In this document: positions 20,712 through 45,074 of the stretch, piece after piece | Layout: every line of letters starts with the position of its first letter | Position numbering within the stretch: position 1 is the first letter of the stretch | Source: Chloranthus sessilifolius | Lineage: Eukaryota > Streptophyta > Magnoliopsida > Chloranthales > Chloranthaceae | Assembly: GCA_021018995.1 (NCBI GenBank) | Contig: CM037587.1 | Span: forward strand, 18,291,366 to 18,355,365 | Direction of reading: 5' to 3' | Length of the DNA: 64,000 nucleotides | Made by a program: the position numbers and the translations under genes | The notes under the pieces: model-generated | Seen by the model: only the letters and a program-made list of their open reading frames with translations | The model's database searches: none | What the model was told of the DNA's origin: nothing

Positions 20712-21508
20712 TTTTTAGGGTCCTAGGGGTTTGGGAAACTGATTTCAATGGTAGATGATGGGGTGAGACCATGGGTGACTTAAGGGTTGCCAATAAGCTC
20801 AAAGGGGGTGCAACCAACCTTAAGACACCCACCTTAACCAAGGGGATGGTCAAAGGGTTAAACCAAATGGAGGAAATTTGAGCATTTAATGACAGATACT
20901 GTAGTCAAGCTGGGCATATATATTACATACGCCCAGTTTATGCACAGTAATTTTCATGAAAACCAGGGGGAATCTGAGAAGATGGGTGCCCGTGGTGGGC
21001 CTTCCTATGCTGGGCGTATGTATTATATACCAAATTTGGCCCAAAAAATGCCAGGCCTATATAATACATACGCCTGACCAAACTAGGGCCAAATTTGCTG
21101 GGCATATGTAATACATATGCCTAAGTAAAAAGTCATGATTTTATGTGGACTTTCATTCGGCCATAGCTTTCGAACCACAGATCCAAATTAGGTGATCCTT
21201 GGCTCGTTGGATAGCTGGAGAAGTCCTCTTACCAACAGTATAGGGCTCATCCTCAGCAGTGGTTTGTATAAAAATTCGCAGCTCTCCTCCCATCAAATGC
21301 TCAGAAGGGTTTAAGTTGAGTCCGGGAAGGGATCCTAGGGTTTAGGGGTGATTTCTAAGGGTTGGGGGAATGGTTCTAATGGTTTTTAGGTGATTCCTAA
21401 AGGTCTGGATAGATTACCAAGGGTTCAGGGGTGCCATCGGAAGCACAGGGGTGCATTTCTCCCAGAGTACAGAAAGATCGGGCCTTGGGCCGAATTTTAG
21501 TGTCTACA
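20690..21508 (-). mobile_element. Truncated 3' LTR of element X (LTR beta)
   Basis: On the minus strand the LTR starts at 21508 with TGTAGACACTAAAATTCGGC, matching TGTAGACACCTAAATTTAGC at 44546. A purine tract (AAAGAGGGGCATC, 21521-21509) precedes it, as expected for a PPT. It ends at about 20690 at a point equivalent to about 17430 in LTR alpha, so promoter, R and U5 are missing. It contains palindrome array F. It sits beyond the 3' UTR of element X and is best read as its 3' LTR. Confidence 0.75.
20910..21122. repeat. Palindrome array F, core GCGTATATAATATATACGC
   Basis: Four copies: GGGCATATATATTACATACG at 20912, GGGCGTATGTATTATATACC at 21012, GGCCTATATAATACATACGC near 21054 and GGGCATATGTAATACATATG near 21100. 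It lies in U3 of LTR beta. The centre and arms are the same as arrays G, H and I, and unlike arrays E, J and K. Confidence 0.85.
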
Positions 21509-23160
21509 GATGCCCCTCTTTGGTATTCGATCACTAATGATCAGATGCCAAAGACAAGAGACATCCGAGGAGGTCCAAGGCATGTTTGATGGGTCCGCCT
21601 GGTTCAACTCAATTCTCAAACATTCATGGTGATGGTGAGTATTCGTAAGCCCTCTCATTTTGGGATATCGTCCGTACCTCAAAGCTAACAGTCCCTAAGC
21701 GCATTGCAACATTATTGGGCATAACTGCGATGATCACAAAAAGTGTAAGCCCGCTAGCCGGGATATCATCCACTTCCTGAGAAAATTATAGATTTGTGAT
21801 GTTGAGTATTAATCTGAAGCAGACAGCTCCATGAAACGGGGTGATCAATCTATGCTTCGGGATCGACGCGAAATACACAAGGCGAAAGGCCTAAACAATG
21901 TGTCCAATCCTATGGGGTATTGGCAGCTCCATTGGATTGGACACGGGTGCCCTTACCTAGGTAAGGCTCGGAGTTTCTGGGTGAACCCATCAACCTCGAG
22001 GTTGCTTTAGCATGATTTACCTGAGTGGAGCGAATATTGATGTCGTAACACTTCTTGGGAATGCATGCCCATTTTCAGAGTAATTTTTTTTTGAATTTTC
22101 TTTTGTTTCAAGGCCCCTAAGTGAAGCTCAAGGACCTCTGGAAATTTTATTCTTGCACAACTCTTTAAGTGGATCAAATGTCAGTTGATACGCTTTAAGA
22201 ATGCGTGTGCTCCGCCGGGGAAGGGTGCACCTTGGGGATGTGCTCGTTCCGGTGGCGAGGTGCTCCTAATTTACATGAACTGGAGTGCCTTAACTTGATA
22301 CAAAGCTAAAAAGATCGGGCTAGAACCAAACATCCATCGAAAGAGATGGTCAATTCTAGCCTCCGTCCCTAATGAAATCACATCTTACTAACTATGCACA
22401 GACAGACACCCATCAGGGGCGATAAGCAGCAAATAGGTGCGAACAGAAGCCTCGACCCTAAGGTACAATTTACGAGGATAAACGACCATCCTACGGATAC
22501 CCAGACGCAAGTGCGTACATTCAATAGGGACACTGTGCCTATACAGGTTTTAAGCCTATGTAAAAGGAAATAAAGGGGAATGAGCCCTTTGGTCTGTATG
22601 TTTGCCCATAGTTTGGTTGGTTGTAATTTCATTTTTGACGGGTCCGTTTCTACTGATAATAGACTTTTCAAATGGTCTGAAGTCGAGTGCACTCTTGGTC
22701 AATCATAGATCCGAAGGTGGATGATCAGAGCCGAAGCCTGGAAGGTGGGGTCAACCAACTCAGGATTTTAACTACATAACAACAGGTTGTTATTCCGAAC
22801 CTTCTCCTTCTTTTTCTTTTTCTTTTTTTTTTTGCACATGTCAGTTCGAGACTTTGACCATGCTCAAACTGTTTTTATTTTTGCATGTATCCTTAGGCAG
22901 ATCCACTTACCATGTTGATATACCTTAAGGATGTGCACATTCCGGTGATAGGTCCTTGGTTTACCTGCCGGACTAGGTGCTACCTCCTGGGGCATGTTTA
23001 GGGAACTGGGACCGGGGATGGGTAAAATTATCTACCTGTTGGATCAGGTACGGGGTGTCCCTGTGTAAAACAGGGTTCGAGAGTTTTCGGGTGAGCCCAA
23101 TCATTCTGAATTGATTTAACACGGTTCTCAGAGTGGCGCAAACAGTCATTGCGACTCTCT
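21509..23160 (-). mobile_element. 3' untranslated region of element X
   Basis: No coding domain is seen. The segment aligns on the minus strand with 43500-44545 of element Y: both carry the CATTCGATCA(T/C)TAGTGATC block next to the PPT, the GTTATGCCCA block, and the ATACCCAGACGC / GCGTCTGGGTAT block near 22500. This shared 1.3-1.6 kb region lies between the antisense PMD gene and the 3' LTR in both elements. Sequence 23160-23490 shows poly-T and nothing else. Confidence 0.6.
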
Positions 23161-23497
23161 TTTGAGAACTAGTGTTGTCTTTCGACATTTTTCCTTTTTC
23201 TCCTTTTTCGTTAGTTTATGTGAATCTTTTTTTCTTTTTTTTTTGCAAACTTTTTTTCATGATTTTATGGGAGCACTTGGTGGGCGCTTATAGAACTAGA
23301 TCTGCTTATTGTAGCACGGTCCCTTTGGGCCAATCGAAAGGAGCTCGAAGGGTCATTTGGGGATGCGTGCACCATCGCTTGATGGTACGCGGGCTTCTAA
23401 GAGGGACCGAGCCTTGGTCCGTAGCATACAGGGGGGGTCCGTCGGGCCTCAAAGCTGAAAAAATGGCTGGGTAGTTTTAAAATTGCCACTTTTGGTC

Positions 23498-23572
23498 AGG
23501 CGTATATAATATATACGCCTGACAAATCTGCAGCCAAAAATGGCTGGGCGTATATATTATATACGCCTGACC
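23498..23572. repeat. Palindrome array G upstream of the antisense PMD gene
   Basis: Two copies: CAGGCGTATATAATATATAC at 23498 and GGGCGTATATATTATATACG at 23546. Each is a near-perfect palindrome. They lie about 215 bp before the 5'-UTR intron of the PMD gene. The equivalent place in element Y holds array J with a different core. Confidence 0.88.
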
Positions 23573-23787
23573 AAAATCGACAGTTTTAAAACTGCCCGAG
23601 CCTGAGCAGAAAAGGGACCCCCTCTTTCAAACTCTATCTTCTTCCCTCCTACTTTCTCAAGTCCGGGACAGCCCCTTAGGGTTTTGGCATTTGGTTTTGC
23701 CCGAGTTCTATCACCGGGGTTTGTGTGTGTGGATCAGAAACACTCATCCTCTATCGGTTTTTGGATCTATTTCCTCTCCCCTTGAAG

Positions 23788-24380
23788 GTAATCATTAACC
23801 CCTCTTTCATCTCCTTTTTGAATTTTGATAATGATTGATGTTCTTCCTTTTTGTGGTGATAAATTAATGCATTTTTTCTCTTTTTTTTTTTTTTTTCAAG
23901 TATGTGTGATTCCTTGTGCTCATGTTCTTCTCTTTTTTTTGTTTCTCTTATTTTTATTTTTTTTTATTCATCATCATCCTTTTTCCCCTTTTTTATTCAT
24001 CATTCATCATGTATCATCACCGTTCATCATCTTTATTCTTGTTTGTTTGTTGTTTTTGTTTGTTTTGTTGTTGTTGTTTTTTTTATGATGGATTAGTACA
24101 CATATATTATTATATTTTTTTTGCATTTTTATTACTTTTCTCCTTCTCTCTTCTTTTTTTTGGGTTTGAGATGCTTGATGTTCTTTTTTGTAGTGCATTT
24201 TTTTCTTTCAGGTATATGTGATTCCTTAGGCCTATGCTCCCCTCTTTTTTCATTTTCCTCATTATTCATCACCACTCATTCTTCATTCATTTTTTGATGG
24301 ATTAGTGCATATTTTGTTATTCTCCCCCCCCCTTTTTTTTTAGCAGCCCTTTCTTATACCGATGTGTTCCATATTTTCAG
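23788..24380 (+). other. Putative 5'-UTR intron of the PMD gene (element X)
   Basis: Donor CTTGAAG/GTAATC at 23788 and acceptor ATATTTTCAG at 24380 directly before ATG 24381. The interior is extremely T-rich with many T runs; the Phe/Leu/Cys-rich frames across it are composition artefacts. In element Y the equivalent interval contains a 43-bp tandem repeat. Confidence 0.55.
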
Positions 24381-26757
24381 ATGTCTGGCAACAAAGGGCA
24401 TGGTCCATAGGAGGGGCCCGAGATGGCCTATGGTCCTCATGGGGAGCAATTCATTATTTCCCAACGCTCCTCCCAACCTTGGTATGAAATGCAAGGTGAA
24501 GCCACTCGTACTGGCCTCCTTCATTGTTAGCATACCCATATTTCCAACTTTAGGATAGCTAGCAAGGTAAACAGATGAGCCCTTTTTCTATTCCTTTGAT
24601 GCCTTCATTATACCACTTTGTTCCTATTTGACCGATGCCTTTTGTCTGCAACCTTTGCCACACATTATGTTCCGGGGTGGCTGGTTCGACCTCCAACGCC
24701 TCGTACTTTATCTCCCACATGTGGTGAAGGACCTGCTTGCCTAAGCTGGTTTTGGGGATTTCATTTCCTGCCCCGCTGTGAGGGCTGACACGACCTATCT
24801 GAAGGCCCTGATAGAGCGCTTCCGCCCTGAGACCATGACGTTTCACATGGCTATGGATGAGATGACCCTCATACCCGCGGACTAGTCCATGATTACCGGG
24901 GTTCGTATTAGAGGGGTGTCAGTGATACCTGCCCGTACGCTTGATAGGGAGGAGGTGACTCGGTTGATACGGGCCTACCCAACCTCCGAGAACGTTCGCG
25001 GTTTCGAAGTCAAGCTATCCTAGGTAGTTGGCTTGTTCGTGCCTCATGAGTTAGTGGATCTGGGCCAACCTGATGCGGCCATCTATCTCGAGCCAGAGCG
25101 TGCACTGATGCTGGCCCGCATTTCTCTGTTGTTCCTCCTTGGCAAGACTCTCCTTTCAAATACCAGCGGAGGGCGGGTCTCATTGTCCCTACTCAGTCTT
25201 ATGGTGAACTGGGACACTGTACATCGGTTCGATTGGGGAGGTGCTGGTTATGCGGTGCTCATGTCTAGCCTGGTGCGAGCCGTTCTTGGGGACTCCAGCT
25301 CCGTTGTGAGCTTCTGGCCCACACTTGAGGTATTTTATCCTTTGGTCTCAATTTGTACCCCCCCCCTTTTTTTTGCATATCTGTTTTTATCTACTTGCTT
25401 TCTCAGGTAAGGGGGTATCTGCATTTCCAACCTGGTCGCCCTCTGCTTCTCCCGGAAGTTCCCACGTTTCCCCTTATGAGCAATTGGCATGGAAACTGCC
25501 ACCGGGACGTAGGTATGAAGCACTTGGAGTTAGGGCTGCGATCTCAGTTTGATCTGCTGATCCCTGAGCAGGTATAACAATTTCTCTCTTTGCAAATTTG
25601 ATAGCTCTTTTATGTTGTGGGTTCTGACCAAATGTATAAATCCCTCCTCTTTTTATTAAGCAGGTCATCCTTGATCCCTACGTCGGATCCCCCTTCTGAA
25701 ACTTGGCTGCAGTGGGCCCTTCTCGCCTTTTGTTAGATCGACGCATTATTTTCTTCTATGGGTCCTGGGCTAGGGCCTATTACTTAGGAGAGAGGCTGAT
25801 TCATTAGTATCGACCTCTTTTTGCCATGCCCCAAGCTCCTCCAGCTGATGTATTGGCTCCTGAGGGTTCTACCGAAATGCTTACTGCTCGCTTTCTCCAC
25901 CACGAGGTCCCCATTGATGATCTTCTCTTTCCTGGGGGATATCAGATGTGGTAGAATCTCTGCCCTATCGTTCTCTGCTGCCCCGATTCGTGCCTAGTGC
26001 CAACTTTTTGGCTTTTGGTGGCCCGCAATCTCAGGTAATGTTCTTTCCTCTGTCTATTAGCAGCCTTACATATGATTACCTTAATTGCTCTGCTATTTGA
26101 ATAAAGACTATTTCTCCCCATAGTTTTGACAGGATGACGATTCAGATGAGGGGGATGAGGCAGCTGTTCCTGATGAGGCTACCGGTGCTGGACTTCCGAC
26201 CCTTCGGGTGCTGGCGCTTTTAGTAGTTCGCCAACTGAGGTCTAGGGGACTTTTAAGCGCTTGGATGATGCCTTTCTATCACCTATGTGTGCCGATGTGG
26301 CTGAGAAGGCACGCATATCTGTGAAACCTATTCGGATTCCACCCGCTGAGCTAATCCCTGGGGTAATCTCTCCCTTGTTACCTTGCTCTTCTGTTTTCTT
26401 GGATTATGTCGATGGCCTGTGTGACTAATACCTCTCTCTTTATCTTTTTACTGCAGGATTATGAGTCGGCCCTAAACCAAGCCGAATATTATTGCCACAT
26501 TGTCAGTCTTAGGGAGGTTGAGGTGGTGAGTGAATATTAACCGCATCTAATCATCCTCATATTTACTTTCTACTTGTTTCCCTAACTAATGGCCCTTCGT
26601 GTGCTTATGTAGCGTGCTCGTCAAAAGGAGTCGCGCTCTCTACTTGGCCTCTCAGGCATGGACTCGGGTGGGGGAGACCCGTACCTTTCAAAGCACGACC
26701 CGACGCCGGAAGAAGTCAAAGGGGGCTGCCCAGGATTAGTTCATTTTCTGAAAATTT
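24381..26757 (+). pseudogene. Antisense plant mobile domain (PMD) gene with introns, element X
   Basis: A multi-exon gene on the strand opposite to gag-pol. Likely exons: 24381-24566, 24652-25329, 25407-25571, 25664-26034, 26133-26362, 26457-26525 and 26613-26757. Most boundaries have GT and AG, and the frame is kept across the second to fourth exons. Residues typical of the aminotransferase-like plant mobile domain are FGDFISCPAVRADTTYLKAL, RFRPETMTFHMAMDEMTLIP, ARISLLFLLGKTLLSNTSGG, DWGGAGYAVLMSSLVRAV and YLHFQPGRPLLLPE. The first coding acceptor is changed (CTGCAA where element Y has ATGCAG) and there are in-frame stops in exons 1, 2 and 4. A basic RRRKKSK cluster lies near the end in another frame. 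PMD proteins occur in plants both as host genes and inside transposons; the molecular role is unknown. Confidence 0.75.
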
Positions 26758-27128
26758 GAAACAGTGAAACAGTTTATATTTTGAAATATTGGGGAATATG
26801 TAATAATTTTCTTTTGATTTTTTTTGGATGGTCTCACAACTTTTATGGTTTATATGAATGCTCTGTTTGTTTATCTCTCTGCCTTTATGGGTTTTTTGTT
26901 TGTTTGGCATAAAGCGGGCCAGAGCCCCTCCAATGACGAGGGTGAGCTCGTGTGTGATTACCCGCATATGATCCACGGATGCCACATCATCCGAGGGTTT
27001 CCCATGGGTGCGTGAGCGTGCCCAGCCCCGAGATAAAAAAGTAGGCTGAGCGAAATCCGTACCTCGCTTGGAAAGTAGAAAAGAATGGGCTAATGCGAGG
27101 GGAGCCACACTTCCCTGCCCTCATTAAC

Positions 27129-27297
27129 TGGGCGTATATATTATATATGCCTGGCAAAAATTTTGAAATTTTTCCTTGGCGTATATAATATATACGCCTG
27201 GTAAAAACATCTGCCATGTTGCCCTGGCGTATATAATATATACGCCTGGCCAAAAAAATTTAGAATTTTGCCTTGGCTTATATATTATATATGCCTC
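27129..27297. repeat. Palindrome array H upstream of the DUF7745-like gene
   Basis: Four copies: GGGCGTATATATTATATATG at 27130, GGCGTATATAATATATACGC at 27178, GGCGTATATAATATATACGC at 27226 and GGCTTATATATTATATATGC at 27275. Spacing is about 48 bp. The array ends 178 bp before ATG 27475 and begins about 370 bp after the PMD gene. Confidence 0.9.
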
Positions 27298-27474
27298 ATA
27301 TAACTAGGCTCGACGGGTTCCTTATAATCCGCGCCCAGCCCTCTTTGCCTCACTATTCACCCGGGCTTTGCCTTTTTGCCCCTCCTTTTTCTTTCTTTTA
27401 TCTTTCTTCCCTTTTTTCTTGACAAGCGGGTCCATCACCCTACATTGATTGAGCTTTATGTAGGACACCTTTAT

Positions 27475-28951
27475 ATGTCTATGGACCCGCTTCCCGGCCC
27501 AAATTCTCATACGGGGGATGGGCTTAGTGTACTTCCCTGTTTGGACTCGGGGCCCAATTTTTTACAATAGTGGTGCGCTAGCTTGACTGAGGGCGAGCTC
27601 GCTGTTCTCGATCGCCTCAGATTATCCCTCCTTTCCTCTCTCCTTGTTCCTCTGTTGCCCGACCTCCTACAAGCGGCTTTGGCGTCATGCGACCATAGGG
27701 CTCATGTCTTCATATTCGGGTCCGGGGAGCTCACCCCAACCTTGGAGGAGCTAGCCTCTATTATCGGCTTGAGGATGCATCGAGGGATTGCCAAAGTGGT
27801 GCCCAAACCGGGGTATGCAAAGGCGGTCTACGCGGTTCTTGGTTTGAAAAAGGGTGGGTATGAGAAGGGCTTCCCCGGCGGGCCCACTAGGTGCTTGGTG
27901 AAATTCCTGAGAGAACTTTTCGGCGACTCAAGTCTCCAAAAGTTGCCTGTCCGAGATCCTTTCAATTTGAAGGCCTTTGCCCTTTATTTGCTATCGAAAG
28001 TTCTCTTCTTTACTAGGGGCGAGACATTTTCCCTCGGGTTATGTGATGTCTTGACCGAATTAGAGGGAGGTCGTTCACTGGTACACCTAGTCTTGGCTGA
28101 GATGTATCGGGGCTTGGATGCCTCGGCCTCGGGCCGGGTTGGGATTCTTCACGGGATTCCACTCCTTATTCAGATTTGGCTAGGAGAGCATTTGGCTATC
28201 ATGGGGCCTGTGCCGAGATTCTGCTTGGTAAGAGGGGATGTGGCATGGGGCTTTCTGACCTGCTGCTTGAGGCTGCCCCATGGGAGCATCGAAGAACTGA
28301 GCCTGTGGCTATCTGATGCGGAGTTGATCTGGCAACTTCCCTGGTTGGACGACACCTTTTCGATTGTCCGCTCTCGGGATTGTGAGGGTATCACGCTTTT
28401 GGGGTTGACTGGTAGTACCTACTATTTCCCATCTCGGGTGCTTCGTCAATTCGGATATACCCAACCCGTGCCATGTATTGTGAGGCTGCCCTTGTGTTCC
28501 CTGATATTCTCTTGGGGTTCTCTCAGTGACCTGGATCGCATAGTAGCCCTCTGGGAGACCCGCCAATCGCCGCACATGTGTAGCTTGGTTCAGGGGGCGT
28601 CCTCTCTTGATTCTGAGGTTTGGATCAGAGCTCACACCCTAACCGGTTTGATAGATGTGATAGAGGCAGGTCAGGCCATTCAAGGAAACGGTGCTCCGGA
28701 CTAGAATTGAGTCTCTTTTTGTAGAGAAGCTGGCTTTGACTGAGGCTTTGGGGAAGGAGAGGGCCAGAGCCGAGATGGCGGAGGTGAGAGCTGCTACGGC
28801 CGAGAGTGAGGTTCTTCGGTTGACTGGGCTTTTGACTGAGTCTCATAGTGCAGCTGATGCTTCGCGGAGGCGGCAGAAGAGTCTTCATGGTAGGTGGTTG
28901 ACCGATCGAAATGCCCGTGAGGAATCTCTTCTTCGCGGTCGATTGCCTTGA
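27475..28951 (+). pseudogene. Antisense DUF7745-like gene with coiled-coil C-terminus, element X
   Basis: The likely start is ATG 27475 (MSMDPLPGPNSHTGD). One in-frame TAG at 27568 is followed by an unbroken 374-codon frame to 28704. The body has the layout of the DUF7745-type plant family: SLTEGELAVLDRLRLSLLSS, FIFGSGELTPTLEELASIIG, FNLKAFALYLLSKVLFFTRG, LIQIWLGEHLAI, LSDAELIWQLPWLDDTF and PSRVLRQFGYTQPVPCIVR. A frameshift near 28690 leads to a Glu/Ala/Arg-rich segment to 28951 with heptad-like spacing (EKLALTEALGKERARAEMAE), probably a coiled coil. It is antisense to pol and follows the PMD gene in tandem. The family assignment is from memory of its sequence pattern; function is unknown. 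Confidence 0.62.
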
Positions 28952-29181
28952 GCGTGGTTCTGCCCTTACACTGTTTCTGCACATACCATAGATCATATAC
29001 ACAGAGGGGGGCTGATGCCCCTTAACAGAGATCTCCTTCCTTTTTTTTTGGGTTGTTTCTTTTTATTTGTTTTATACTTGTACAGAAGGCAGAAAGTAGA
29101 AAGTGTGTCATGTTGTTATCTTTTTGGGACGTGACACTTCATACGTGATGCTTGTAAGAAAAGAAATGAAATTTGCTATAT

Positions 29182-29213
<32 letters not shown>

Positions 29214-29273
29214 TTTTGGTATTCGAATTTTCTTCCATACGTCTTGCAACGTAAGGTTATTTTTTCTTTTCAA

Positions 29274-29465
29274 ATTTTTCTCCTACATAGGGTGAGGCTT
29301 TTTATGGGAAAGGAAAATCCATTATCTTTTTTGAAATTTTTTCCTTCACAATGTGAGGCTTTTTATGGGAAAGGAAAATCTATTATCTTTTTTGAAATTT
29401 TCTCCCTCACAGTGTGAGGCTTTTTATGGGAAAGGAAAATTCATTATCTTTTTTGAAATTTTCTC
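29274..29465. repeat. 61-bp tandem repeat, three copies
   Basis: GTGAGGCTTTTTATGGGAAA recurs at 29292, 29353 and 29414 with the intervening ATTATCTTTTTTGAAATTTT block, a constant period of 61 bp with few mismatches. Confidence 0.92.
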
Positions 29466-29769
29466 CTTTTTGTGATGTCGGTATTTTCAAGGCCAACTGG
29501 TGGGTCCTCTTTTTGAGCATGGTCGAACCCCGTTTAGGAGTTTTCGGTACTTCTGGATAGGTCAGCTTCCCCGAGATTGATTAATCTTATGGCCTTACCT
29601 TTGGTCATGTGTCAGACGACGCGGTAAAGACGACATACTTGATTAGGATCCGATCTGATTTTAACATGAGCGGCCCCATCAAAAGAAGGGGGAAGGGGCT
29701 CAAGGGGTCCAGACAAAAATAGGCGGGCCGGAACAGATCCTCTCCTAATCTCTCTTTTCTTGACATTTT

Positions 29770-29960
29770 TGCTCACAGCGTCCAAGACAGGTTTTCGCCA
29801 TGCCTGTCATCCCTATTTTTACCCGTAGCGCCCTTTCGGGTTTTCACCACGTCCATGGGTTCGCTCTCTTACCCCAAGTGCCTTTTCAGGTTTTCACCTG
29901 GTCCGCGTGAGTTCGCTGTTTTTACCAGCGGTGCCCTTGCGGGTTTTCACCATGTCCATC
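29770..29960. repeat. About 51-bp degenerate tandem repeat, four copies
   Basis: GCGCCCTTTCGGGTTTTCAC-like units occur at about 29778, 29828, 29879 and 29932, each followed by CATGTCC or similar. Units of this kind are frequent in the 3' part of plant Tat elements (recalled from experience, not searched). Confidence 0.8.
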
Positions 29961-30631
29961 TTGCTTTGAACTCAAATTAATTTTCTTTCTTTCCTTTTTT
30001 CTTTTCTTCTTTTTTTTTAGAACTAGAAAGCCACGACATAGACAAAGATTCTGTCATAACCGGCTGGATGGGGTTCTGGTGTCGTCTCACGACTCGACTC
30101 ATGTCGACTTGACAGATATTGTGACTGCTTGCGAACCTACAAAGAGGGCTTCCTTCAGGGTGTAGCTTGGCCATGGGTTAGGTTAGGATTTGAAGGTATG
30201 CTGGGCTAAAAGGGTTTCCTTGATGCGGCTTCAGTTTTCTCAACATACTTTCTTCCTTAGGGGGTTTTTACTGTACATGCCTCGTGATTCTTTTATACAC
30301 ATCTTTTGTTATTCTTTTTTTTTTCTCCATTTCAGGCAATCTCTTTTTGAGGTTTTGCTTTTTTTTTTTAATTTTTGGGTTTGATAGTAACTTTATACAC
30401 ATGTATCTTTTCTCACTTCTTTTTTTGGTATACATACACGTATATATATTTTTTGGGGGGGATGAGTTTATTGAAAGAAAGGCCCAGGCTCAAATGGGGT
30501 AGCAAAGGATAAAAAAAAATAAATTTAGGGATGTTTTTTTTGGGCTACTGTGCTTGGAATGATGGCCTCTTTTGGGTGGTTCTTAAGCAGTCACATATCT
30601 ATTTCATCAATACTTACCTTATCACGATACA

Positions 30632-31745
30632 CTAAGAGTAGAACCGTCGGACATATCCAGCATTGATGGGTTCGGGAAGATGATCTCCGTCCATGGTGGT
30701 GAGACCGATGGCTTGTCCCGGCAGCACCACTCGAATGATGTATGGTCCTTCCCAGTTCGGCTTAAACTTTCCTCTTGGATCAGCATGGAGGGATGGGAAG
30801 ACCTTTTTCAGCACAGTGTCTCCTACCTTTAGATCTCGACCACGAACACGTTTATTGTAAGCGCGTGCGATTCTCTCCTGGTAAACTTGAGTGTGACACA
30901 AGGCTAGGAGTCTCCTCTCGTCCAATAAGTTTAATTGTTCAAAGCGGGATCTCTCTCTCTCTGCTTCGGGTAAGCCTGATACCATGAGGATTCAGAGCGA
31001 TGGTACTTCAACCTCCGCCGGGAGGACGGCCTCGGTTCCATACACAAGGGAGAATGGTGTAGCCCCTGTAGCGGTACGGATTGACGCTCTGTAGGTCCAA
31101 AGCACGAAGGGTAACTGCTCGCTCCAATCTCGATAAGTGACGACCATTTTCTCTAGGATGCAGACTAGAGTTTTGTTGGCCGCCTCCACGGCTCCATTAG
31201 TTTGAGGCCTGTAATGGGAGTAGCGATGGTGCTTAATCTTGTACTGCTCGCAGAAGTCTCGGATGCGCTTATTCGCGAAATTTGTACCATTGTCCGTGAT
31301 GATATCTCTGGGTACTCCAAATCGGTACACAATATTGTTCTTGAGAAACTTCTCAATGTGAACGGCCATGATATTGGCATATGACGCCGCTTCAACCCAC
31401 TTGGTGAAGTATTCAATGGCGACGAGGATGAATCGATGTCCGTTCGATGCTTTTGGATTAATCATTCGGACAACGTCAAGGCCCCAGGTAGCGAATGGCC
31501 AAGGAGTGGTCATGCAGTGAAGATCAATGGCGGAAGCATGTATCAGACTGGAGTGTTCTTGACACTTGTAGCATTTTTGAACATGTTTATAACAATCTGA
31601 TTCCATGGTGGTCCAAAAGTATCCCTGCCGTAGGATTTTCTTAGCGAGCATGTGACCGCTAATGTGGGTTCCGCATACTCCCTCATGGATTTCTTTCATA
31701 ATACTAACTGCTTCAGTTTCAGTGAGGCACCTGTGTAAGATGTTA
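30632..31745 (-). pseudogene. Integrase of Tat element X
   Basis: The His/Cys zinc finger is present in MKEIHEGVCGTHISGHMLAK and CYKHVQKCYKCQEHS. The core shows WGLDVVRMINP (first Asp), IITDNGTNFANKRIRDFCEQ (second Asp) and RPQTNGAVEAANKTLVCILE (Glu), all three catalytic acids kept. The frame stops after EVPSL at 30992 with TGA where related proteins have Arg, consistent with CGA to TGA; it then continues in the same frame (ILMVSGLPEAERERSRFEQL) to 30632. The C-terminal part includes LKVGDTVLKKV and GKFKPNWEGPYIIRVVLPGQ. No chromodomain follows, in keeping with Tat. Confidence 0.93.
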
Positions 31746-31753
31746 TTGTATGA

Positions 31754-34164: not shown

Positions 34165-34215
34165 CTGCGAGGCTTGGCCTTTATCCTTTTGGTTGGAAGC
34201 GACATCGGGAGGCTT

Positions 34216-34836
34216 TTACAGTTCCTCCTTCAGCATGTTTATGGAGGGATCCTCTGGGACCCTGTCTTTGAAGGTTAGGGTGGGCCCAAAGTGGCTAGTG
34301 CTAGAGTGATGGGTGGGCCCAAGGATTTCCTCCTCAAATAAGGAGAGGGCTGCCAAGTCCACCTCGAGGTCCAGGGGGATGATGTAAGGGTTAGTGGGGT
34401 GGGCGAAAGTAAGCTTGTGTGGGGTTATCCTCATCTCCCCATTCAGATCAATCTTTACCACCCCGGTGCTTACAAAGGATTGGCGAATGTGGGGCCGGGC
34501 GGGAGGCTCTTCTTCTAGGTCGATTCCCCTGGCCCTGGCTACTGCCGCGGCTCTTATCCTCTCTTTGGCCTCTCTGACTTCTTCATCAAGCCTGTAGCCC
34601 AGGCCAAATTTGGTTTGCTGCCCCTTGGCCCTAACGGGGTCCCTTCTTCCTTGAAGGCGCAGGCCCAGCCCTTTCCCTTTTTGGTGGCCCCATTTGTCGA
34701 GCATGAACACGGCTGCATCCGTTCCTCCTCTAGTTTTGGCAGGGGTTTTTTCAGTCAGCTCAAGGATAACGGCTGAGAAGTCATACTCAAATCGATGGAG
34801 ATTGGTGTCATCCACTGTGTGCGGCATGTCAAGCAC
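34216..34836 (-). pseudogene. G-patch-containing segment of Tat element X
   Basis: An uninterrupted 206-codon frame. It has KWGHQKGKGLGLRLQGRRDP and QTKFGLGYRLDEEVREAKER, the glycine pattern of a G-patch, followed by a basic segment (KERIRAAAVARARGIDLEEE). A G-patch after the protease is characteristic of Tat/Ogre polyproteins; it is thought to bind nucleic acid or to assist processing. The frame is in pol order between PR and RT. Confidence 0.8.
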
Positions 34837-35019
34837 TTTCAGATTCTCAATATGCAGAGCGCTCTGCTCCCTGTCTTCTCTGCTCTCACCTACGATGGTG
34901 ACGATTCTTCCGCTTGAGATGAATCAGAGTTTTTGGTGTAGAGTTGATGGTATTGCCCCGATCTCAAGCAGCCACGGTCGGCCCAATAATAGATTAAATG
35001 TAGACTTGATGTCCATCAC

Positions 35020-35346
35020 CTAGAAGGGGACAATGAAGGTTTGCGGCCCGATGATCAGGTCGAGGTCTACTTCTCCTATGATCTCTCTTTGAGTGTTGTC
35101 GAATCTCCTGGCACTTGTTATTGATGGCCGGAAGGTGTTGGGGTTCGCACCGATTTTGATTGCCGTCATTAGAGGGCATACGTTCAATGCCGAACTGTTG
35201 TCTATTAAGACCAACGGCACCACCAAGTTCCCTACTTCCACTGCTATATTCAGGGGTTTAGAGTGGTTGTTCCCCTCGAGCGGCAGATCCGCATTAGTGA
35301 ATGAGATGGCATTTGGGGCCAACACTTGCCCAATTATTTCTCCCAC
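35020..35346 (-). pseudogene. Aspartic protease of Tat element X (altered active site)
   Basis: The block PLVLIDNSSALNVCPLMTAI has the catalytic Asp but Ser where Tat proteases have Gly (DNGSSLNV-type). It continues FRPSITSARRFDNTQREIIG and DLDLIIGPQTFIVPF, then a stop near 35020; the family C-terminal LGRPWI-like motif is found out of frame at about 34990. Upstream FTNADLPLEGNNHSKPLNIA is the usual pre-protease segment. Confidence 0.85.
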
Positions 35347-35659
35347 CTCTTATGGGATCACATGGGCGGAAACATGTGTGTCTTTGAGCGCTCCCGTTAA
35401 GGCTTGAAAGTGGAGCGGGGATGTGATTAACAAATCCCAGACAGTAATATGTGCGGGTGTCCTCTTGAGCTGTGTCTCCAACACATGCTCTCTGGCCATT
35501 TTCTCGAAGGGGTTCCCTGCGGCCTACTCTTTCTTCTTCTCTTCTCTTCTACCGGCCCCCGATGCTTCTGGCTGTGTAGAATCTTGCCTGATCGGGTGAT
35601 AAATTCGACAGTCTCTTCTAGGTTGCGACCAGCATTCATGTCCATTTGCTCGTAAGTTA

Positions 35660-36900
35660 ATGGCACTTGATGCGGGTCATAGGCGGGTTTCGGGATGAGA
35701 AAGTGAGTGCATGGTGATTGGGGCGGATTGCGCTGGGTATGTCAGATTCATAGGCCCAACCAAGTTGACTCCAATAGGGGGTGTAACGGTACTGGCGGGA
35801 ATCAGCGAAGTTGGGTTTAAGGTTGCGGAGGGGGTTTGTGCAGGCATTACCGAGGCGTGGTAAGACCAATGGTGATTAGGAGCGGGTGATAAGGGGAGTG
35901 GGTGGGGTTGTTTATTTGGGTGGAGGTGGAGCTGGATTGGGGGCAAAATGGCAAAGGGATGGTAGGGGTGTGACTGGGATGGGGTGACTGGGAAACGTTG
36001 GAGGTGCAGGGTGATAGGGGTGTGACGAGGTAGCGGATGGAGCATGGGGGTACTGATATGAAGGGTTTGTAAATGGGGTGGCATGGTGGGGCGATGATGG
36101 GTTCGTGGATAAAACAGGGTAAACCGGGGATGATGAAGTTGCGCATGGGGCGAGGTGATTTGGGGATGGTGGAGTTGCATATTGGGCGAGATGATTTGGG
36201 GATGGCGGGGTAGTATGCTGGGTAGGGGGATTTGGGGGTGTGTATGGGGTAGGATAGTATGGGGATGGTGGAGTTATGTATGGCGTGGGGCGATTTGGGT
36301 GACAGAGAGGTATATGGGGTGGCTGATGGTGGGATAGTGTGTGGGATGGGGTGATTGGGAGGTGGTGTGTACTGTGGGGTAAATTGGGAGTGGGGCGAAT
36401 ATGCGTATGATTGCAGTGGGGCTGGGCCCATTTGGATTTGGTAGGCAGGAGCAGGAGTGGAAAAATACTACCCTAAATCTATGGGCTCCTCTTTGTATGC
36501 CGAGGTGGGGAAGTAATCGACTAAATACAACGGCTCGATCACCCCCACAATTGGTTCACCCTTGTTCTGCGTGGGAAATGAAAATTCTTCTTGACTACTG
36601 ATGTAATCTGAGGGGTCAAACTCTTCCTCTTCCTCTTCTACCCAATGGATGTTAGGCCTGGGCCTCCTCGGTGTGGTGGCAGAGGGGCTTGATGGATGTT
36701 CTGGATTTACCCTTGAGGAAGGGTAGGGGAACAATTTTTCCCGCCTCTATTAAATCTTAGATTGTGTGCTTTAGTGGAAAGCACCGGTCCGTAAGGTGAC
36801 CTGGTCCCTAGTGGAAGTTACAATGCAGGTTTGGATCATAGTTTCTTGGTATCAGATTGGGTGGTGGGTGAGGCTGGAGTAAATTGACCAGACCCTTTTG
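35660..36900 (-). pseudogene. gag-protease linker of X: zinc-knuckle-like motif and Pro-rich region
   Basis: Following the capsid core, DPNLHCNFHQGPGHLTDRCF (about 36830) matches the CDYHGGxxGHxTExC-type knuckle of Tat gags. It is followed by a stop, DLIEAGKIV, then an acidic stretch (VEEEEEEFDPSDYISSQEEF). From 36431 to 35660 a Pro/Ser/His/Ile-rich repeat region follows (e.g. PICNSTIPKSPRPMRNFIIP). It lies between gag and PR. Confidence 0.75.
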
Positions 36901-36930
36901 TAGCAACACTGGTAATAAGACACTTAATGA

Positions 36931-39681
36931 TTACCCTAACGGCGTGAAAACCCGTTCAAACCGTGCTTTCATCTGTTCCTGGGTGAACGGGGCCCTCGGT
37001 CCATTGTTCGGCCTTGGCGCTTGTTCGAAACGGGCCGAGGGTGGGTGTGCGGCCTGGAGCTGTATCGAGATGGCATTGGCCTGGGGATAAATGATGTTCT
37101 GCACCTCTGCCCCTGGCCTTCTTTCAACCCTTGGTTCGGCAGCTTTCCGATCCCCAGCGGCCCCGTTGGCCATGCTCTTTTCCAACTTGCCCTCTCTAAC
37201 GGAATCTTCGCAACGGTTGGCATTTTGGACCAAATCAGCAAAATTGGACTGCTGCTGATATACCAAGAATTCTGCGATGACTGGGAGCGCTCCCTTGGTT
37301 ATGAATTCAATTTGCTCATCATCTGAAATCTGGTGGGTCACCTGGGCGGCCAACGCCCTCCACCTCCCTAAGTAGGCACTGAAAGTTTCATCATGTCTTT
37401 GCTTCAAACGGGCCAGATCCGACTTCCTTGGCTCTATGTCCATGTTATAGACATATTGTTCTTGGAATATGTGTGTCAGATCTTTCCAAGATTTGGTCAT
37501 GGACGGTTCTAGGTATGTGAACCATCTCAGTGCTGGGCCCGTTAAACTCTTTTGGAACACTTTGATGAGGAGTAGTTCATCGCCACCATACTGGCACATA
37601 TCTCCACAGTAAGATTTTAAGTGGGCGATGGGGTTGCCAGTGCCATTATATTTATCGAAGGATGGCATCTTAAATTTTGGTGGCAGGGGGACATCTGAGA
37701 ATAGACATAAGTCTAAAAAGTCTCTCGATTGCAGTTCTACTCCTCCCATCTTCAGCAGCTGCTTTTGTATTCTGTCTATCTGTTCTTTCAGCTGCTCTGA
37801 TTCTTTTAAGGCTATAGCTGGGACTGCCTCCCCTTGATTTTGTTCGGCCTCGGGTGTGACGATGATGGGCCTGGGGGGGTGAAACTGGCAGCTCCTCCAC
37901 TATTACGGATCATGTCCTCCTCGTACTGTTGGTCATTGTACTGGTGAGGGGCGAGGTCTGCTACTTGGACCTGGGGGGTGATGGGTTGGATGACCTGGTG
38001 GGGCCATAAAGCTTGTAAGGGATGGGGAGGAGTGAATGGATGAGTGGTTTGTGGATGAGTGATGTGCTGAGCTGGGTGCACATTCTGGGGGTGATGGGGG
38101 TGTGGTTGATGTGGCGAGATGTTGTAGGTGTGGTTTTGAGGAATGGGGTGGATCAGATTTTTCGTTAGAGGCGGGATGGGGGCATAAGGGGTATAGGTGA
38201 ATGAAGGGTACTGGTGAGGGGGTAAGGGGTTTGTGAACGAGCTTTGATGAGTGTGGGTGGATGGGCCTTGGGTTTGTGAACGAGCTTTGATGAGTGTGGG
38301 TGGATGGGCCTTGGGTTTGGGCATGATGGTTTTAAAAAGCTTGGGTTGATGGGCCTCGGGCCTGGGTGTGGGGGTTGGCATGATTTTGGGCCAATGGACC
38401 CTGTTGGGTTTAGGCTAATGGGCCATGTGGGTATTGGGTGTGGGATGATGGGCCTTGGGCTTGGGTTTGATAGGTTTAGGTTCAAGGGCCCTGGGGGGTT
38501 TGGAATTGGGCCTGGATCTGATGGGCTTGGGCCTGGGCCTGAGTCTGGTGGGTTTGGGCCTAGGGCCATGGGCCTTGAGGGTTTTGGGCCTGGGCCTGAG
38601 TCTCATGGGTTTGTGCTTGGGCCCATGGGCCTTGAGGATTTTGGGCCTGAGCCTGATGGGTTTGGGCTTGGGCCCATGGGCCTTGAGGATTTTGGGCCTG
38701 GGTCTAGTGGGCTTGGGCCTGAGCCTGGGTTTGGGCTTGGGCCCATGGTTCTAAAGACATTTGGGCTTGGGCCCATGGATTCGCGTGGGTTTGGTCCTGA
38801 GATGAGTGGGCTTGGGTCTGTTGGGCTTGGGCCTCTGGGGATCTTGGATGGTATGAATGATGGGTTGTTGGGCATGGTTATGGGGGAATGGGGTATGGAG
38901 GTTTTGGAGACTTAGATGCGGGGTTTGGAATGTAGGACTCCGAGAGGTAGCCCACAGGGCATACACCATTCTCATGTCCCCCATTGAGGGCATGGATTCA
39001 GGTGTGAGATTGGAGGGTGATGGCCCATTCAAGGATGGAGGGGGCTGGGTGAAATTGGGCATGACCTAGGTATGGGGAGTATGAATGATTGTGCTTGGAG
39101 GGTGTGGATGTATGGCTAAGGAAGATGGTGGGTTAGGTCACACCCTGGGAAAAGTTGGGCATGACCTGGGTAAATAGGGGGGTATGTTGGGATGTGGATG
39201 GGCCATGTGATGTGGAGGGCATGTGAGATGAGGTGGGTGGGATATAAGATATAGGAGGCATGGATGATGAGGTGGATGGGGTGTGGGAGGTAGGCGGGGG
39301 ATGGGGGATGGGGCTCCCGATGGGGTCTTTGAGAGTAGGGGGTGCGGTAAGGGTGTATGGATGGGAGATGGGGATGTATGGGTCGATTGGGAAATGATGT
39401 GTTTCAGTAGAGGATGAGATGGGGGTATGTTGGGAAAATGTAAGGGCGGGGGATGGGGTGGATGCGAACACGGGTGCCCCAAATGGACCCGTGACATCGA
39501 ACCGGGTTTGGGTGAAGGTGTTGGAGATCGGGTCTTCTCCTATATGGGAATGGGATGGGGATGATGGCGGGGATGTATCAGTGCTCGACATGATCTGTTG
39601 ACGAGTATTGTACCGATGCCTTGGGTAAGGGCCGAACACTTTCCTAGTTCTTTTTCTACGGGTTGGGTTTGAGGTCGCCGT
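36931..39681 (-). pseudogene. gag of Tat element X
   Basis: Alignment to the start of gag Z suggests the ancestral ATG is now ACG at 39681, followed by ATSNPTRRKRTRKVFGPYPR. The N-terminal part is Pro/Ser/Thr-rich, with a frameshift before 39062 (MPNFTQPPPSLNGPSPSNLT, MGDMRMVYALWATSR), then PKILKAHGPKPKP-type repeats and a His/Pro-rich segment to 37812. The capsid-like core 37749-36931 is open: FKMPSFDKYNGTGNPIAHLK, QKSLTGPALRWFTYLEPSMT, DIEPRKSDLARLKQRHDETF, LGRWRALAAQVTHQISDDEQ. It is a Retrotrans_gag type protein of the particle. Confidence 0.9.
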
Positions 39682-40087
39682 AGTGACGGTCGCACCGAAA
39701 GTGCGCGTATATACGGATTTTTGATTTTTCTATATATTTATTTTTTTTGGATTTTTCAAATGAAAATTATCTCCCCTATTTAAATGAATGATGATCTGGT
39801 GCCCTAGAAAAATTCCCGTCTCGGGTGATATATGCACCTTTAGTAGGTCCCACGGCGGGATCCGACACACTTCGGAAGAAGCGAAAGGGAACCCTTTCGT
39901 TCTATTGAAGGTGAGGGAATCCACGCAAACGACCCGATCCCCCAGAGCAAATCAATGAGAAGTCGCCTTCTTTTGACTGGGCGGGGGCATATTGGGCATT
40001 ACAGAATGCGGGAGGCTACTGTGGGCACTAATACCGCTAATCGGGGAACTTGGGTGGTGGATTGGGCCTCAGATCGGGCTGCCTGAA
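39682..40087 (-). promoter_or_regulatory. 5' leader of element X gag
   Basis: No ORF. On the minus strand it contains CCCCGATTAGCGG, AGTCAAAAGAAGGCGACTTC and CTGGGGGATCGGGTCGTTTG, matching the leader of gag Z. AAGGCGACTTCTC could be a primer site of the GGCGACT type used by some Tat elements. I cannot identify the R-U5 end of a 5' LTR here. Confidence 0.5.
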
Positions 40088-40126
40088 CCCAGTATATACT
40101 GGGCATATGTATTATATACGCCTGAC
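40088..40126. repeat. Palindromes I upstream of gag X
   Basis: A perfect 16-bp palindrome CCCAGTATATACTGGG at 40088-40103 overlaps a copy of the X-type motif, GGGCATATGTATTATATACG from 40101. The motif type agrees with arrays F, G and H of the same element; the equivalent site of gag Z holds array E. Confidence 0.85.
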
Positions 40127-40139
40127 CAAAACTTAGCAG

Positions 40140-40983
40140 ATTGTGCATAACTGCTTTTCTGAGAAGTTCTTCACATGATTTCGATAGGTTCAGGAAGCTT
40201 CCGATAGGTTCAAATGGAGCTCTGTGGCCCCTTTCGATAGGTTCTTATGTCTCTTCGATAGGTTATGATAGGATGATTCTCCGCTTAAAGCTTCATCATT
40301 CTCAGCCCTTTGTCTGGAGCATTCGATAGGTTGGAGAAGCTTTTCGATAGGTCGGAGAACCATTTCGATAGGTTCAGCTTTGCATGAGATCATTCCGATA
40401 GGATTGCTCTCATTCCTATCAAAAGGCTCAAGCACCCTTCGTTAGGTTCTGTTCCAGCATCTCCATCTCGATAGGTTCAGGAAACCATTCGATAGGTTCA
40501 CCTTACACCTCAGACAGGCTTTCGATAGGATGGTTTGTTCCTTTCTTTCAGCTGCTCGATAGGTTCTTGGATCCTATCGAACTCCTCAATCCATAAGAAT
40601 TCATCCTTTCTTTGCCTTCAGATCCTATCGAACCCTTTCCAACTACACGAATTCCTCCAATTTAGCTTTCAGCTCCTATCGAAGTCTTCAGATGACCTCT
40701 CAATAGGATGTTTTCAGCCTATTTTCACTTCATTTGCCTTGCCTTGCTGTTGCCACACGCCCCAAGGGCCCAATGGTGTGTAGCCCTCTGGTGTGCTATT
40801 GCTGGGTCTGTCTTGTGCTGAGAGATAAACTTCCTTGTGTGGCATTCTTGAGTGGTTTGCTGCATTTTTCTGATCTTTTATTGCTATCTACAAAACAGAC
40901 TCAACAAAGGCATATTAATGTGCTCACAGGTCGTGCAAAGGTTAGGTTAAGGGGTGAAAACTCGCATTTTTCACTACTTAACA
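40140..40983 (-). mobile_element. LTR of a third family (LTR L), lower end uncertain
   Basis: On the minus strand it starts TGTTAAGTAGTGAAAAATGC at 40983, closely like TGATAAGTAGTGAAAATACC at 60553. It interrupts the PMD copy of element Y right after the codons GGRV. It contains array L. The other end lies between the array and palindromes I; I cannot place it exactly, nor find a TSD. Confidence 0.6.
40187..40712. repeat. Array L of TTCGATAGGTTC motifs with orientation switch
   Basis: About fifteen copies of CGATAGG(T/A)TC between 40180 and 40570 (e.g. 40180, 40200, 40234, 40255, 40323, 40346, 40373, 40397, 40469, 40491, 40527, 40557), then copies in the opposite orientation (CCTATCGAA at about 40572, 40624, 40676). 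Spacing is 15-50 bp. Intervening bases are unrelated to each other. Confidence 0.9.
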
Positions 40984-41787
40984 CTCGGCCGCCGCTCGCA
41001 TTGGTAAAAAGGGTCTTACTCAGCAGGAGCAGGAGGGTGATGCGGGCCAAGACGATCGCTCGTTCGAGAGTAATATAAAGCACCCTATCTGGCTGCCCTA
41101 GATCAACCAACTCATCAGCCGTATAGAGTGCGGATAACCGAGTCATCTTGACCTCGGTGCCATGTATCTGCCTACGAGGGGGATACACCCCTATCATCCG
41201 GATAATGTCATCCTTGCTTGGCACTGTGAGACTAGAAACTGGTATGCTCCCCACCTAGATGTCAGTAATCATTACCCAATCAATGGGCGTCAAGGCCATC
41301 TCAGCATACGACATATGGAAGGTCATCGTCTTAGGGCGAAATCGCTCAATCATTGCTTTCAGATACGCGGCATAGGCCCTCATAGCGGGGCAAGACCGAA
41401 ACTCCCCAAAGCCCACTTGCGCCAGTAGGAACTTCACCACGGGGGGGACATAGAGGTAGAAATCATGAAAATCTAGCCATCCCCCATGGAATACGATCGA
41501 GGGAAGATCCTGCATCCAAAGGAAAGTGCATCAGATCATAGAAATAAATCAAAGCTACACAAAAGAGAGAAATTAAACCTGCCTCTTACCCTGCCTGCTA
41601 TACCAAAGTTTAAAATGTGAATATACTATTGATGAAGGAGGCTGACTCGGGCAGCCTTGCCCTGCATTTCAAGCCAGGGGCTTGCTTTCCGCTCTACCCA
41701 AAGGAACTGCTCCCCTCGCAGACCATAGACTATCTCAGGCCCCTCGTCATGACCCTCCTCGGGAACATACTCATCATCCCCCAACAT
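40984..41787 (-). pseudogene. Antisense PMD gene of element Y, truncated
   Basis: Minus strand, opposite to element Y. Exon 1 41787-41590 (ATG 41787, donor GTAAGA) and exon 2 from 41509 (acceptor ATGCAG) match the PMD gene of X in exon layout and sequence. Readable parts are HGGWLDFHDFYLYVPPVVKF, AQVGFGEFRSCPAMRAYAAY, RFRPKTMTFHMSYAEMALTP, TADELVDLGQPDRVLYITLE and ARITLLLLLSKTLFTNASGG. A TAG separates the two ORFs of exon 2. The gene is cut by LTR L at 40983, so the remaining PMD exons and any DUF7745-like partner are missing. Confidence 0.78.
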
Positions 41788-42655: not shown

Positions 42656-42729
42656 TTGGTGCAACTATAAGTTGCACCAGGCAATTTTGGAGCCCCTTTT
42701 GGCTTGGCACAACTAATAGTTGCGCCAGC
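42656..42729. repeat. Palindrome array J upstream of the Y PMD gene
   Basis: Two copies: TGGTGCAACTATAAGTTGCA at 42658 and TGGCACAACTAATAGTTGCG at 42704. They lie at the place, relative to the antisense PMD gene, that array G occupies in element X, but with the GCAACTAATAGTTGC core. Confidence 0.88.
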
Positions 42730-43250: not shown

Positions 43251-43259
43251 ATAAAACAC

Positions 43260-44545
43260 ATAAAATGATAACCTATTTGTGTTTCCCCACAGAGCAACGT
43301 ACAACTATCCACTTGCGTATTTTCAATGTGATAAAATGTCTATATTTTATCAGCAATGCAGCTTGTCATATTAAAGTCTCGAGTCCAGGGTTCGCCTTGG
43401 ATCTTTGGATCCTACTTCAAAGTAGGAGCAACAACGTCAAACCTGATCAAATGGTCAATATTTCGATCTGGTTGACTCCACTACTAAATCTTCGCACTGA
43501 GCGCTCCATTTTGGATTTATGTGAACTCTAGTATCTTTAGCTTTGGATTCATTGGAAAGGGTCAATCGTTGGTTGAGACCAACCTATTAAGAATGAGATT
43601 ACGCATCAATCAAACTATGTGCAACCATGCATCCAGAAGGGTTCATTTCCCCTTAATTTTTTGGAAGCTTAAAACCTGTATTGGTGGCGGTATCCCTATA
43701 AAGTGTACGCCATGCGTCTGGGTATCTGTATGATGGTCGTTAATTCCCATAAATTGTACTCGGGCAGGTCCGAGTAAGGGCTTCTATCACCTTTGTTGCT
43801 TATCGCCCTTAATGAGTGTATGATTATACATAGTTAAATGATGTTTATGATTATTATTGGTAGAGACCAGGATTGGATGTCCCTTTTGGGAGATACCCAA
43901 TGAATGGTTGGACCTGATCAAGGTAGTTGAAGTTGGATGCTCTAGGTCATGTTGATCTAGGGCACGTTTCCAAAAATGGCATGTACTCCCCAAAAAGTAT
44001 TGCGAGCTCTATTCGCTTCGCTCAGATAGTCATGCCAAATAAATTTCGGGATCAATTGGTCTGCCCAAAGATCCTGAACCCTGCTTCACACAGGGGCACC
44101 CGTGACCAGTCAGATGAGGCGGTCAATGCCTCATACGATTGGACACAAACTATGGAGCCTTGCGTACTTGCGTTTCACCTATCTTTAAGTGTGGGTCGAT
44201 CACCCCTCTTACTTACGAAACTGTTGTATTTAGAATGAATCTCAAACATTAAATACCTTCAAAATCATCCCGAGAAGCAAATGTTGTTCCCGACTATAGG
44301 GCGTTCGCAACTCATCCCACCTCGGTTATGCCCAGTAATGTCGCTAAGTAATTGGGGACCAATTACTTTAAGAAACGAATGTTTAGCCTGCCATGCAGGG
44401 CTTTCGTTTTCTCACCATGTTACCTGTCTGATATTTGAAGTTCGTTTTGAAAGTAGCCAACCCGTCAGTAATGCCTTGGGCCTCTTCGGATGTCTCTTTT
44501 CTTTGGCATTCGATCATTAGTGATCGGATACCAAAGAGGGGCATC
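43260..44545 (+). mobile_element. 3' UTR and PPT of element Y
   Basis: No coding domain. It aligns with the minus strand of 21509-22720. A purine tract, ACCAAAGAGGGGCATC, immediately precedes the LTR start TGTAGACACC at 44546. This places LTR K as the 3' LTR of Y. Confidence 0.65.
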
Positions 44546-44965
44546 TGTAGACACCTAAATTTAGCCCAAGGCCTGATCAAAACCCATTTCGAGAGAGACG
44601 CATCATCGAGCTTTTGATGGCATGTATGAAACCGTTAGGAACCCATTCAAAACCCTAGGAACCCTTCCAAACCCTTAAGAATCACCCTAGATCCCTTAGG
44701 AACCTTTTCGAATCCTTAGAAACCAATCCCGACCCTTAGAACTCGTTCTGGACCTGAACCTAGTTTTTCCAAGCCATGGATGAAGAGTTGGGCACTGGGA
44801 CTAGCTACGGCCTTCTACTATGATCGAATCTTATACCATTGAAAAGAAGAAGTCGTCAGCTTTACAACAGTCCAAGAAACACCCCATTCAGAGCTGTGTA
44901 CGCAGAGATATGGCAGTTCAAACTCGGAGGGCAAAAAGGTAATTTCAAGTGGACCCCTTAGGGAT

Positions 44966-45074
44966 ATGGCACAACTAATAGTTGCACCAGTTATGTGTTA
45001 TCTTGGTGCAACTATTAGTTGCTCCAAGCCATCTCTCCCCAGATTAAGCCTAGCGCAAGTAATAGTTGCGCCAG
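44966..45074. repeat. Palindrome array K in U3 of LTR K
   Basis: Three copies: TGGCACAACTAATAGTTGCA at 44967, TGGTGCAACTATTAGTTGCT at 45005 and AGCGCAAGTAATAGTTGCGC at 45051, spacing 40-46 bp. Core identical to arrays E and J. Confidence 0.9.

Follow-up and report, generated by a model that had tools for sequence, protein, structure and literature searches.

Why should all promoters of one retrotransposon share one palindrome when the equivalent promoters of a related element share another? The question is raised by a 64,000-nucleotide stretch of the Chloranthus sessilifolius genome (GCA_021018995.1, contig CM037587.1, positions 18,291,366 to 18,355,365; hereafter the window, in whose coordinates its features are given), which holds X, a Tat/Ogre-type Ty3 retrotransposon, and the element portions Y and Z, which could be fragments of one interrupted element. 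Arrays of palindromes lie in the U3 of their long terminal repeats (LTRs), in their leaders and on the promoter side of antisense genes. All share a single 21-bp frame, GGCG-N4-TAWTA-N4'-CGCC, in which the half-site, on both arms, is the sole difference: TATA in X and CAAC in Y and Z (GGCG-TATA-TAWTA-TATA-CGCC versus GGYG-CAAC-TAWTA-GTTG-CRCC). Since the cores align in this common scaffold, the difference between X and Y/Z amounts to a symmetric 4-bp half-site change. The outer Y/R variation of GGYG/CRCC, at symmetric CpGs, looks like plain CpG decay.

The TATA class belongs to X (20673..40131, minus strand), whose arrays, to which no strand applies, occupy four sites. Array F (20913..21121; starts at 20913, 21013, 21054 and 21101) lies in the U3 and is decayed, with TATA and TATG half-sites; array G (23499..23567) comprises two palindromes 48 bp apart on the promoter side of the antisense PMD gene; array H (27131..27295) comprises four (27131, 27178, 27226 and 27275) on the promoter side of a second antisense gene of the PMD family; and array I (40102..40122) is a single TATG/TATA palindrome in the leader. 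The CAAC class comprises array E (17761..17875) in the leader of Z, with starts at 17761 and 17808 and a decayed CATG/TAAC copy at 17855; array J (42658..42726), two palindromes 48 bp apart on the promoter side of the Y PMD gene; and array K (44968..45072) in the U3 of Y, with starts at 44968, 45005 and 45052. At up to three mismatches, the X core has 19 strand matches in the window, all inside F, G, H and I (0.01 expected), and the Y/Z core has 14, all inside E, J and K (0.01 expected); a base-shuffled window yields a mean of 0.05 21-mers of palindrome form. The array positions, and the sharing of one core by F, G, H and I and of another by E, J and K, had been proposed in a preliminary description of the sequence and are borne out. 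The Y/Z motif is distinct, as that description held, but its 19-bp cores hid the common frame in which only the half-site is swapped. It also regarded flanks at equivalent sites as homologous, which is correct for I and E (70%) and around F and K (68-73%) but not for G and J, whose flanks give no match in the window self-comparison (E 1e-8, at least 80 bp); G and J correspond by position, ahead of homologous PMD genes (X and Y, 47-57% amino-acid identity).

Genome-wide, the separation between TATA and CA half-sites is near absolute. Exact counts reach 9,927 for TATA/TATA, 13,406 for CAAC/CAAC and 1,132 for CATG/CATG, with 0 for the reversed-pattern control of each. Scaffolds whose half-sites begin with a base other than T on both arms occur 22,881 times (control, 18), and ∼6,700 of these sites are none of CAAC/CAAC, CATG/CATG and CATG/CAAC. 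Only two TATA/CAAC hybrids exist, one on each strand, versus ∼11,400 expected by arithmetic if TATA and CAAC half-sites paired at random, a crude null, given that descent itself copies sites. There are 1,654 CATG/CAAC hybrids (857 and 797 on the two strands); among 100 listed, most have the form GGCGCATGTATTAGTTGCGCC, as does a leader palindrome (L033:2450) of the CAAC element Y1.

Individual elements repeat this pattern. E1 to E7 were chosen from the TATA listing, Y1, L032 and L035 from the non-T listing, and the elements C1 (L049) and C2 (L050) and a mixed element (L052/L053) from the CATG listing; the window, its flanks (L029 and L030) and 11 PMD loci are the motif-blind part of the sample. 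The LTRs of E1, E2 and E3 measure ∼1.59 kb and are 93-94% identical. In E1, the array in the U3 is followed after ∼2 kb by one in the leader, after a further 13 kb by one ahead of the second PMD-family gene, after 3.9 kb by one ahead of the PMD gene and after 2.5 kb by one in the 3' U3, and the internal pieces L016 and L025 show no palindrome match. The U3 arrays end 280-380 bp ahead of a TATAAATA-like TATA box in six of the seven LTRs examined; the LTR of E3 is the one in which no such box was found. Listed positions alone show a CAAC element of the same geometry at contig C1:63,811,560-63,835,252.

A half-site-blind scan covered 26 units, eight TATA-type elements (X and E1 to E7, with two of three stretches of E7 covered) and 18 CA-type units, leaving aside L039, L045, L046, L048, L051, L001-L008 (short loci) and L023 beyond base 5000, where one weak TGTG/TGTG match occurs. 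None of the 222 half-sites in the TATA-type elements is CAAC or CATG (one is CATA), and none of the 136 in the CA-type units is TATA or TATG (five are other TA-half-sites, such as TAAC). The motif-blind sample came from a search with the Y PMD exon, in which 40 of 5,270 candidates, including the window itself, were scored and 11 of the 39 others taken by rank. CAAC palindromes are present in all eight uninterrupted Y-type PMD promoters, the remaining three of the 11 loci being broken by insertions. In Y2 (contig C14), CAAC stands at both the PMD and the second-gene promoter. In L039 a Y-type PMD exon adjoins a TATA array, an apparent exception that was rejected: bases 1-1499 form an X-like LTR (84% to E1), at whose end the PMD match starts. 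No palindromes were found in L045 and L046, where the PMD matches break off into other sequence, and no array in L048, upstream of Y2, where the LTR match stops near the LTR start.

The CATG half-site forms a third class. Element C1 carries CATG at both antisense promoters (five of five palindromes), and its PMD exon represents a third lineage. Element C2 carries CATG at its second-gene promoter, in three palindromes accompanied by one decayed TGTG/TGTA copy, and the listing places a CATG site at its PMD end.

The class of an element agrees with the lineage of its PMD gene. The second antisense gene of X (27550..28906, plus strand) had been labelled DUF7745-like; its match to PMD (PF10536, E 2.5e-16) is stronger than that to DUF7745 (1.6e-8), which makes both antisense genes members of the PMD family. 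The PMD gene proper (24583..26389, plus strand) is broken by stops and matches the E1 and E2 PMD exons at 64-81% amino-acid identity in tblastn; the first PMD exons of E1 and E2 score above the PF10536 cut-off, and the Y exon fragment (40904..41530, minus strand, antisense to Y) falls below it (17.8 versus 34.9 bits). In a tree of 15 PMD exons, the five TATA and nine CAAC rows each lie on one side of a 100/100 branch, and the single CATG row forms a third lineage, so the earlier expectation that motif class would track PMD clades holds in the exon tree. A PMD gene fragment, seemingly of a further lineage, lies at L029:1-1136; its promoter stretch (L051) shows no palindrome, and the match to L049 ends short of the expected array position. 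A protein search with the second PMD-family gene of E1 scored 7,996 candidates and returned none at E of 0.001 or below.

The palindromes are also the best-conserved part of the arrays. In all five site sets compared, palindrome identity exceeds spacer identity (92.1 versus 75.1%, 91.1 versus 78.9%, 93.3 versus 83.6%, 88.3 versus 80.3% and 91.4 versus 72.1%), and the farther flanks of the same sets (75.2, 83.9, 87.1, 77.5 and 79.4%) lie below the palindromes. Dyad symmetry, compensated half-sites, a fixed centre, conservation above that of the spacers and the lack of an RNA-pairing bias (counts below) are the features expected under selection by a dimeric DNA-binding protein. We therefore lean, with no great assurance, toward reading the arrays as operator clusters for a dimeric DNA-binding regulator, most likely encoded by each lineage, with the two antisense PMD-family proteins as candidates. 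These proteins lead because their genes adjoin the arrays, their lineages match the motif class, and host PMD proteins are needed for the expression of motif-sharing genes (PMC7156037). The regulator would act as a symmetric dimer reading GGCG...CGCC and the TAWTA centre in every lineage, with the 4-bp half-site (TATA, CAAC or CATG) as its basis of discrimination. By occupying arrays in the U3, in the leader and ahead of its own two genes, it would link genomic RNA transcription with its own supply, through activation or the removal of silencing; either seems more plausible than repression because the U3 is included. A change in the recogniser would then drag all sites along, giving each family a matched set. 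Protein binding, the identity of the protein and the sign of regulation are what we infer from these patterns. The preliminary description had already proposed operator-like sites; that proposal gains from the finding that TATA and CA classes never occur together in the fetched elements, the motif-blind ones included, and that class follows PMD lineage, and it loses its insistence on strict identity within each element.

A CAAC element with LTRs 93% identical, Y1, lies at G000 C1:2721300-2737000 (L033, L034 and L031) and keeps CAAC arrays in both U3s and in the leader. No PMD match was found in its fetched parts, which include the stretch from integrase to 3' LTR, with 3.9 kb between leader and pol lying outside them. 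Arrays kept where no PMD match is seen fit a factor acting in trans, and Y1 is a candidate PMD-less derivative served in this way. A broader proposition, that Tat/Ogre PMD proteins are dimeric sequence-specific regulators that diversified with their palindromic operators into exclusive codes (TATA versus CAAC/CATG), without cross-talk between families and with PMD-less derivatives parasitising the code, is tentative, and we hold it at slightly under an even chance.

Several observations weigh against the operator reading. A PMD promoter at contig C1:68.476-68.480 Mb, in an element chosen since the listings showed both classes 4 kb apart, carries a single CAAC palindrome with a single CATG palindrome 48 bp away, the other promoter of the element being CATG, and one CATG half-site occurs in each of the leaders of Z, Y1 and L029. 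One motif per element is thus too strong a statement overall, and exclusion is strict only between TATA and the CA variants; tolerance between CAAC and CATG is what a transitional recogniser would allow. A tree of the second exon, with nine rows, unites the two CATG rows at no more than 81/85, which, with one or two rows from two loci, leaves the CATG lineage thinly supported. Many elements were selected through motif listings, and the identity comparison took its palindrome columns by palindrome score, a choice biased toward conserved ones. The spacings between palindromes (n = 107; 47/48 bp in 84, 99-101 in nine and 37/38 in five) fit one 10.5-bp phase (R 0.87, phase 0.52), but R is at least 0.7 at every period from 9.5 to 11.5, and spacings are inherited and dominated by one value, so the phase is suggestive only. 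The accessory proteins contain no recognised DNA-binding domain: five pieces compared with Pfam at E values up to 10 gave PMD, DUF7745 and one K_trans_C match at 0.16, and neither DUF1985 nor DUF287, remote homology being outside the scope of such a scan. A single-sequence structure model was unusable (predicted local distance difference test, pLDDT, 36.8).

The lack of a recognised binding domain in the PMD proteins favours a second explanation, that host transcription factors bind the palindromes, each lineage having recruited another member of one host family, with the antisense PMD genes as passengers. Plant LTRs with repeated enhancers for host factors are known. This explanation needs paralogous factors with GGCG...TAWTA...CGCC in common and N4 as their sole difference, it needs coordinated change at four dispersed sites, and it leaves aside that class follows PMD lineage; we consider it unlikely, though the strongest of the alternatives.

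Ordinary descent would make X and Y separate families with inherited motifs, the copies homogenised by slippage or conversion and serving no function. Two class changes suffice on the PMD tree, and shared ancestry by itself could thus account for the link between motif and PMD lineage, which also counts against the operator reading, and the LTRs of the two classes align only partly, at ∼70%. Yet the scaffold was retained while the two arms changed in concert, divergence is greater in spacers than in palindromes, neighbouring sites lie ∼2 to 13 kb apart in different flanks, and TATA/CAAC hybrids are nearly absent. Nor are the elements themselves too far apart for the comparison, a possibility the preliminary description had raised: with Y1 standing in for Y, whose pol lies outside the window, X remains 81% identical in pol across 2,944 bp of the RNase H-integrase part, and 77% across 1,474 bp of the reverse transcriptase (RT) part. 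The corresponding values for X and E1 are 77% and 86%, and the second PMD-family gene of X is 81% identical to that of E1 and 66% to that of Y2. Regulatory and accessory parts are further apart than pol. Descent without function seems improbable to us. The idea that the palindromes are RNA hairpins or DNA cruciforms (for packaging, dimerisation, termination or the triggering of silencing), under which base pairing would also keep perfect dyads with compensatory arm changes, is the least probable of all, because the broken pairs of 168 palindromes show no G-U excess in the element sense (43, versus 65 A-C and 51 other) and hence no sign of selection for RNA pairing, a loop needs no conserved TAWTA centre, and arrays at antisense promoters would fit a DNA role better.

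The pol of X (29816..34197, minus strand, from RT to integrase, assigned by Pfam and element comparisons) is a mosaic, while its sites stay TATA-class. In a sliding comparison, X and E1 are mostly 84-89% identical up to ∼32.6k and 63-79% from ∼32.3k on, whereas X and Y1 remain at 68-85% throughout; in the direction of X, its pol is thus closer to E1/E2 before ∼32.6k and to Y1 after ∼32.3k. This sharp switch in relationship (window 32300-32750, against L010, L013 and L034) is a sign of recombination between retrotransposon lineages. Acquisition of the X integrase part from the CAAC lineage was considered and dropped: a foreign segment in E1/E2 fits the sliding comparison at least equally, so no direction of transfer is claimed.

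The remaining features complete the picture of the window. X comprises leader, gag, G-patch, pol, the two antisense genes and a truncated 3' LTR, as judged by Pfam matches (gag, G-patch and rve) and alignment to E1; its gag (Retrotrans_gag, by Pfam) lies at 36931..37899 (minus strand), and the U3 part at ∼20673..21511 (minus strand, 82.7% to the E1 LTR) is its only LTR in the window. The gag region of Z spans 18301..20684 (plus strand), with Retrotrans_gag at 20031-20684, and the LTR of Y spans 44549..46104 (plus strand), with its TATA box at LTR position 824. Between X and Y, at 40160-40720, lie many TTCGATAGGTT-like words, an unrelated dispersed repeat, and a 225-bp unit stands in three tandem copies (87% matches) at 12919-13603, outside the elements discussed.

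Placement among Ty3 LTR retrotransposons follows from gag and rve in X, RT/RNase H in Y1 and the LTR pairs of E1 to E3. Tat/Ogre elements carry an extra RNase H (aRH) between RNase H and integrase (PMC6317226), and in Y1 an RVT_3 match follows RT_RNaseH, as a Pfam match rather than a placement in a reference tree. The PMD-bearing extra open reading frame (ORF), frequent but not universal in Tat/Ogre elements, is present here. In the parts of the literature consulted, PMD is reported in 57% of Ogre elements, and extra ORFs and large non-coding regions in most OTA elements; 'palindrome' is absent from the main text of that report, which describes no family-specific promoter motifs (PMC6317226). 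In one survey, no atypical domain of plant Gypsy elements was more frequent than PMD, whose function is called unknown there (PMC9289625). The Arabidopsis proteins MAIN and MAIL1 are transposable element (TE)-derived PMD proteins, and a promoter motif, DOWN, occurs in 25 of the 26 genes down-regulated in all mutants (PMC7156037). That system (PMD-C, with PP7L) resembles the present one in tying PMD proteins to genes that share a promoter motif, with motif recognition by PMD suggested, and differs in acting on host genes (PMC7156037, PMC9899485).

If the operator reading is right, TE self-recognition extends from DNA transposons to retrotransposons, and the arrays offer a natural series in which to follow how a recogniser and its numerous scattered sites change jointly. 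Whether PMD proteins read DNA can also be tested directly, since the 21-bp site exists in thousands of copies and in three half-site classes that arose naturally. The preliminary description knew of no system of this form. None was found for retrotransposon-family promoter palindromes in a search that most subscription papers lay outside, but in function the VANDAL/VANC systems of Arabidopsis MULE DNA transposons are a near precedent: there, proteins encoded by a TE recognise short motifs that recur in the non-coding regions of its own family, VANC relatives use different motifs, and co-evolution of motif and recogniser has been proposed (PMC5735166; PMC10398659). Here too, CAAC/CATG mixing excepted, a family-specific short motif is repeated in a family's own non-coding regions. 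The VANDAL transposase is much more conserved than VANC (PMC5735166), just as pol is less diverged here than the regulatory and accessory parts. The differences are equally clear from what these sources cover: VANDAL is a DNA transposon whose VANC proteins carry DUF1985/DUF287, whereas the present elements are LTR retrotransposons with PMD, and VANC motifs measure 8-9 bp, with 'palindrome' absent from the main text of PMC5735166, whereas 21-bp palindromes stand here before each promoter. The best reading is that the palindrome arrays would work like the VANC/VANDAL anti-silencing systems, in an LTR retrotransposon.

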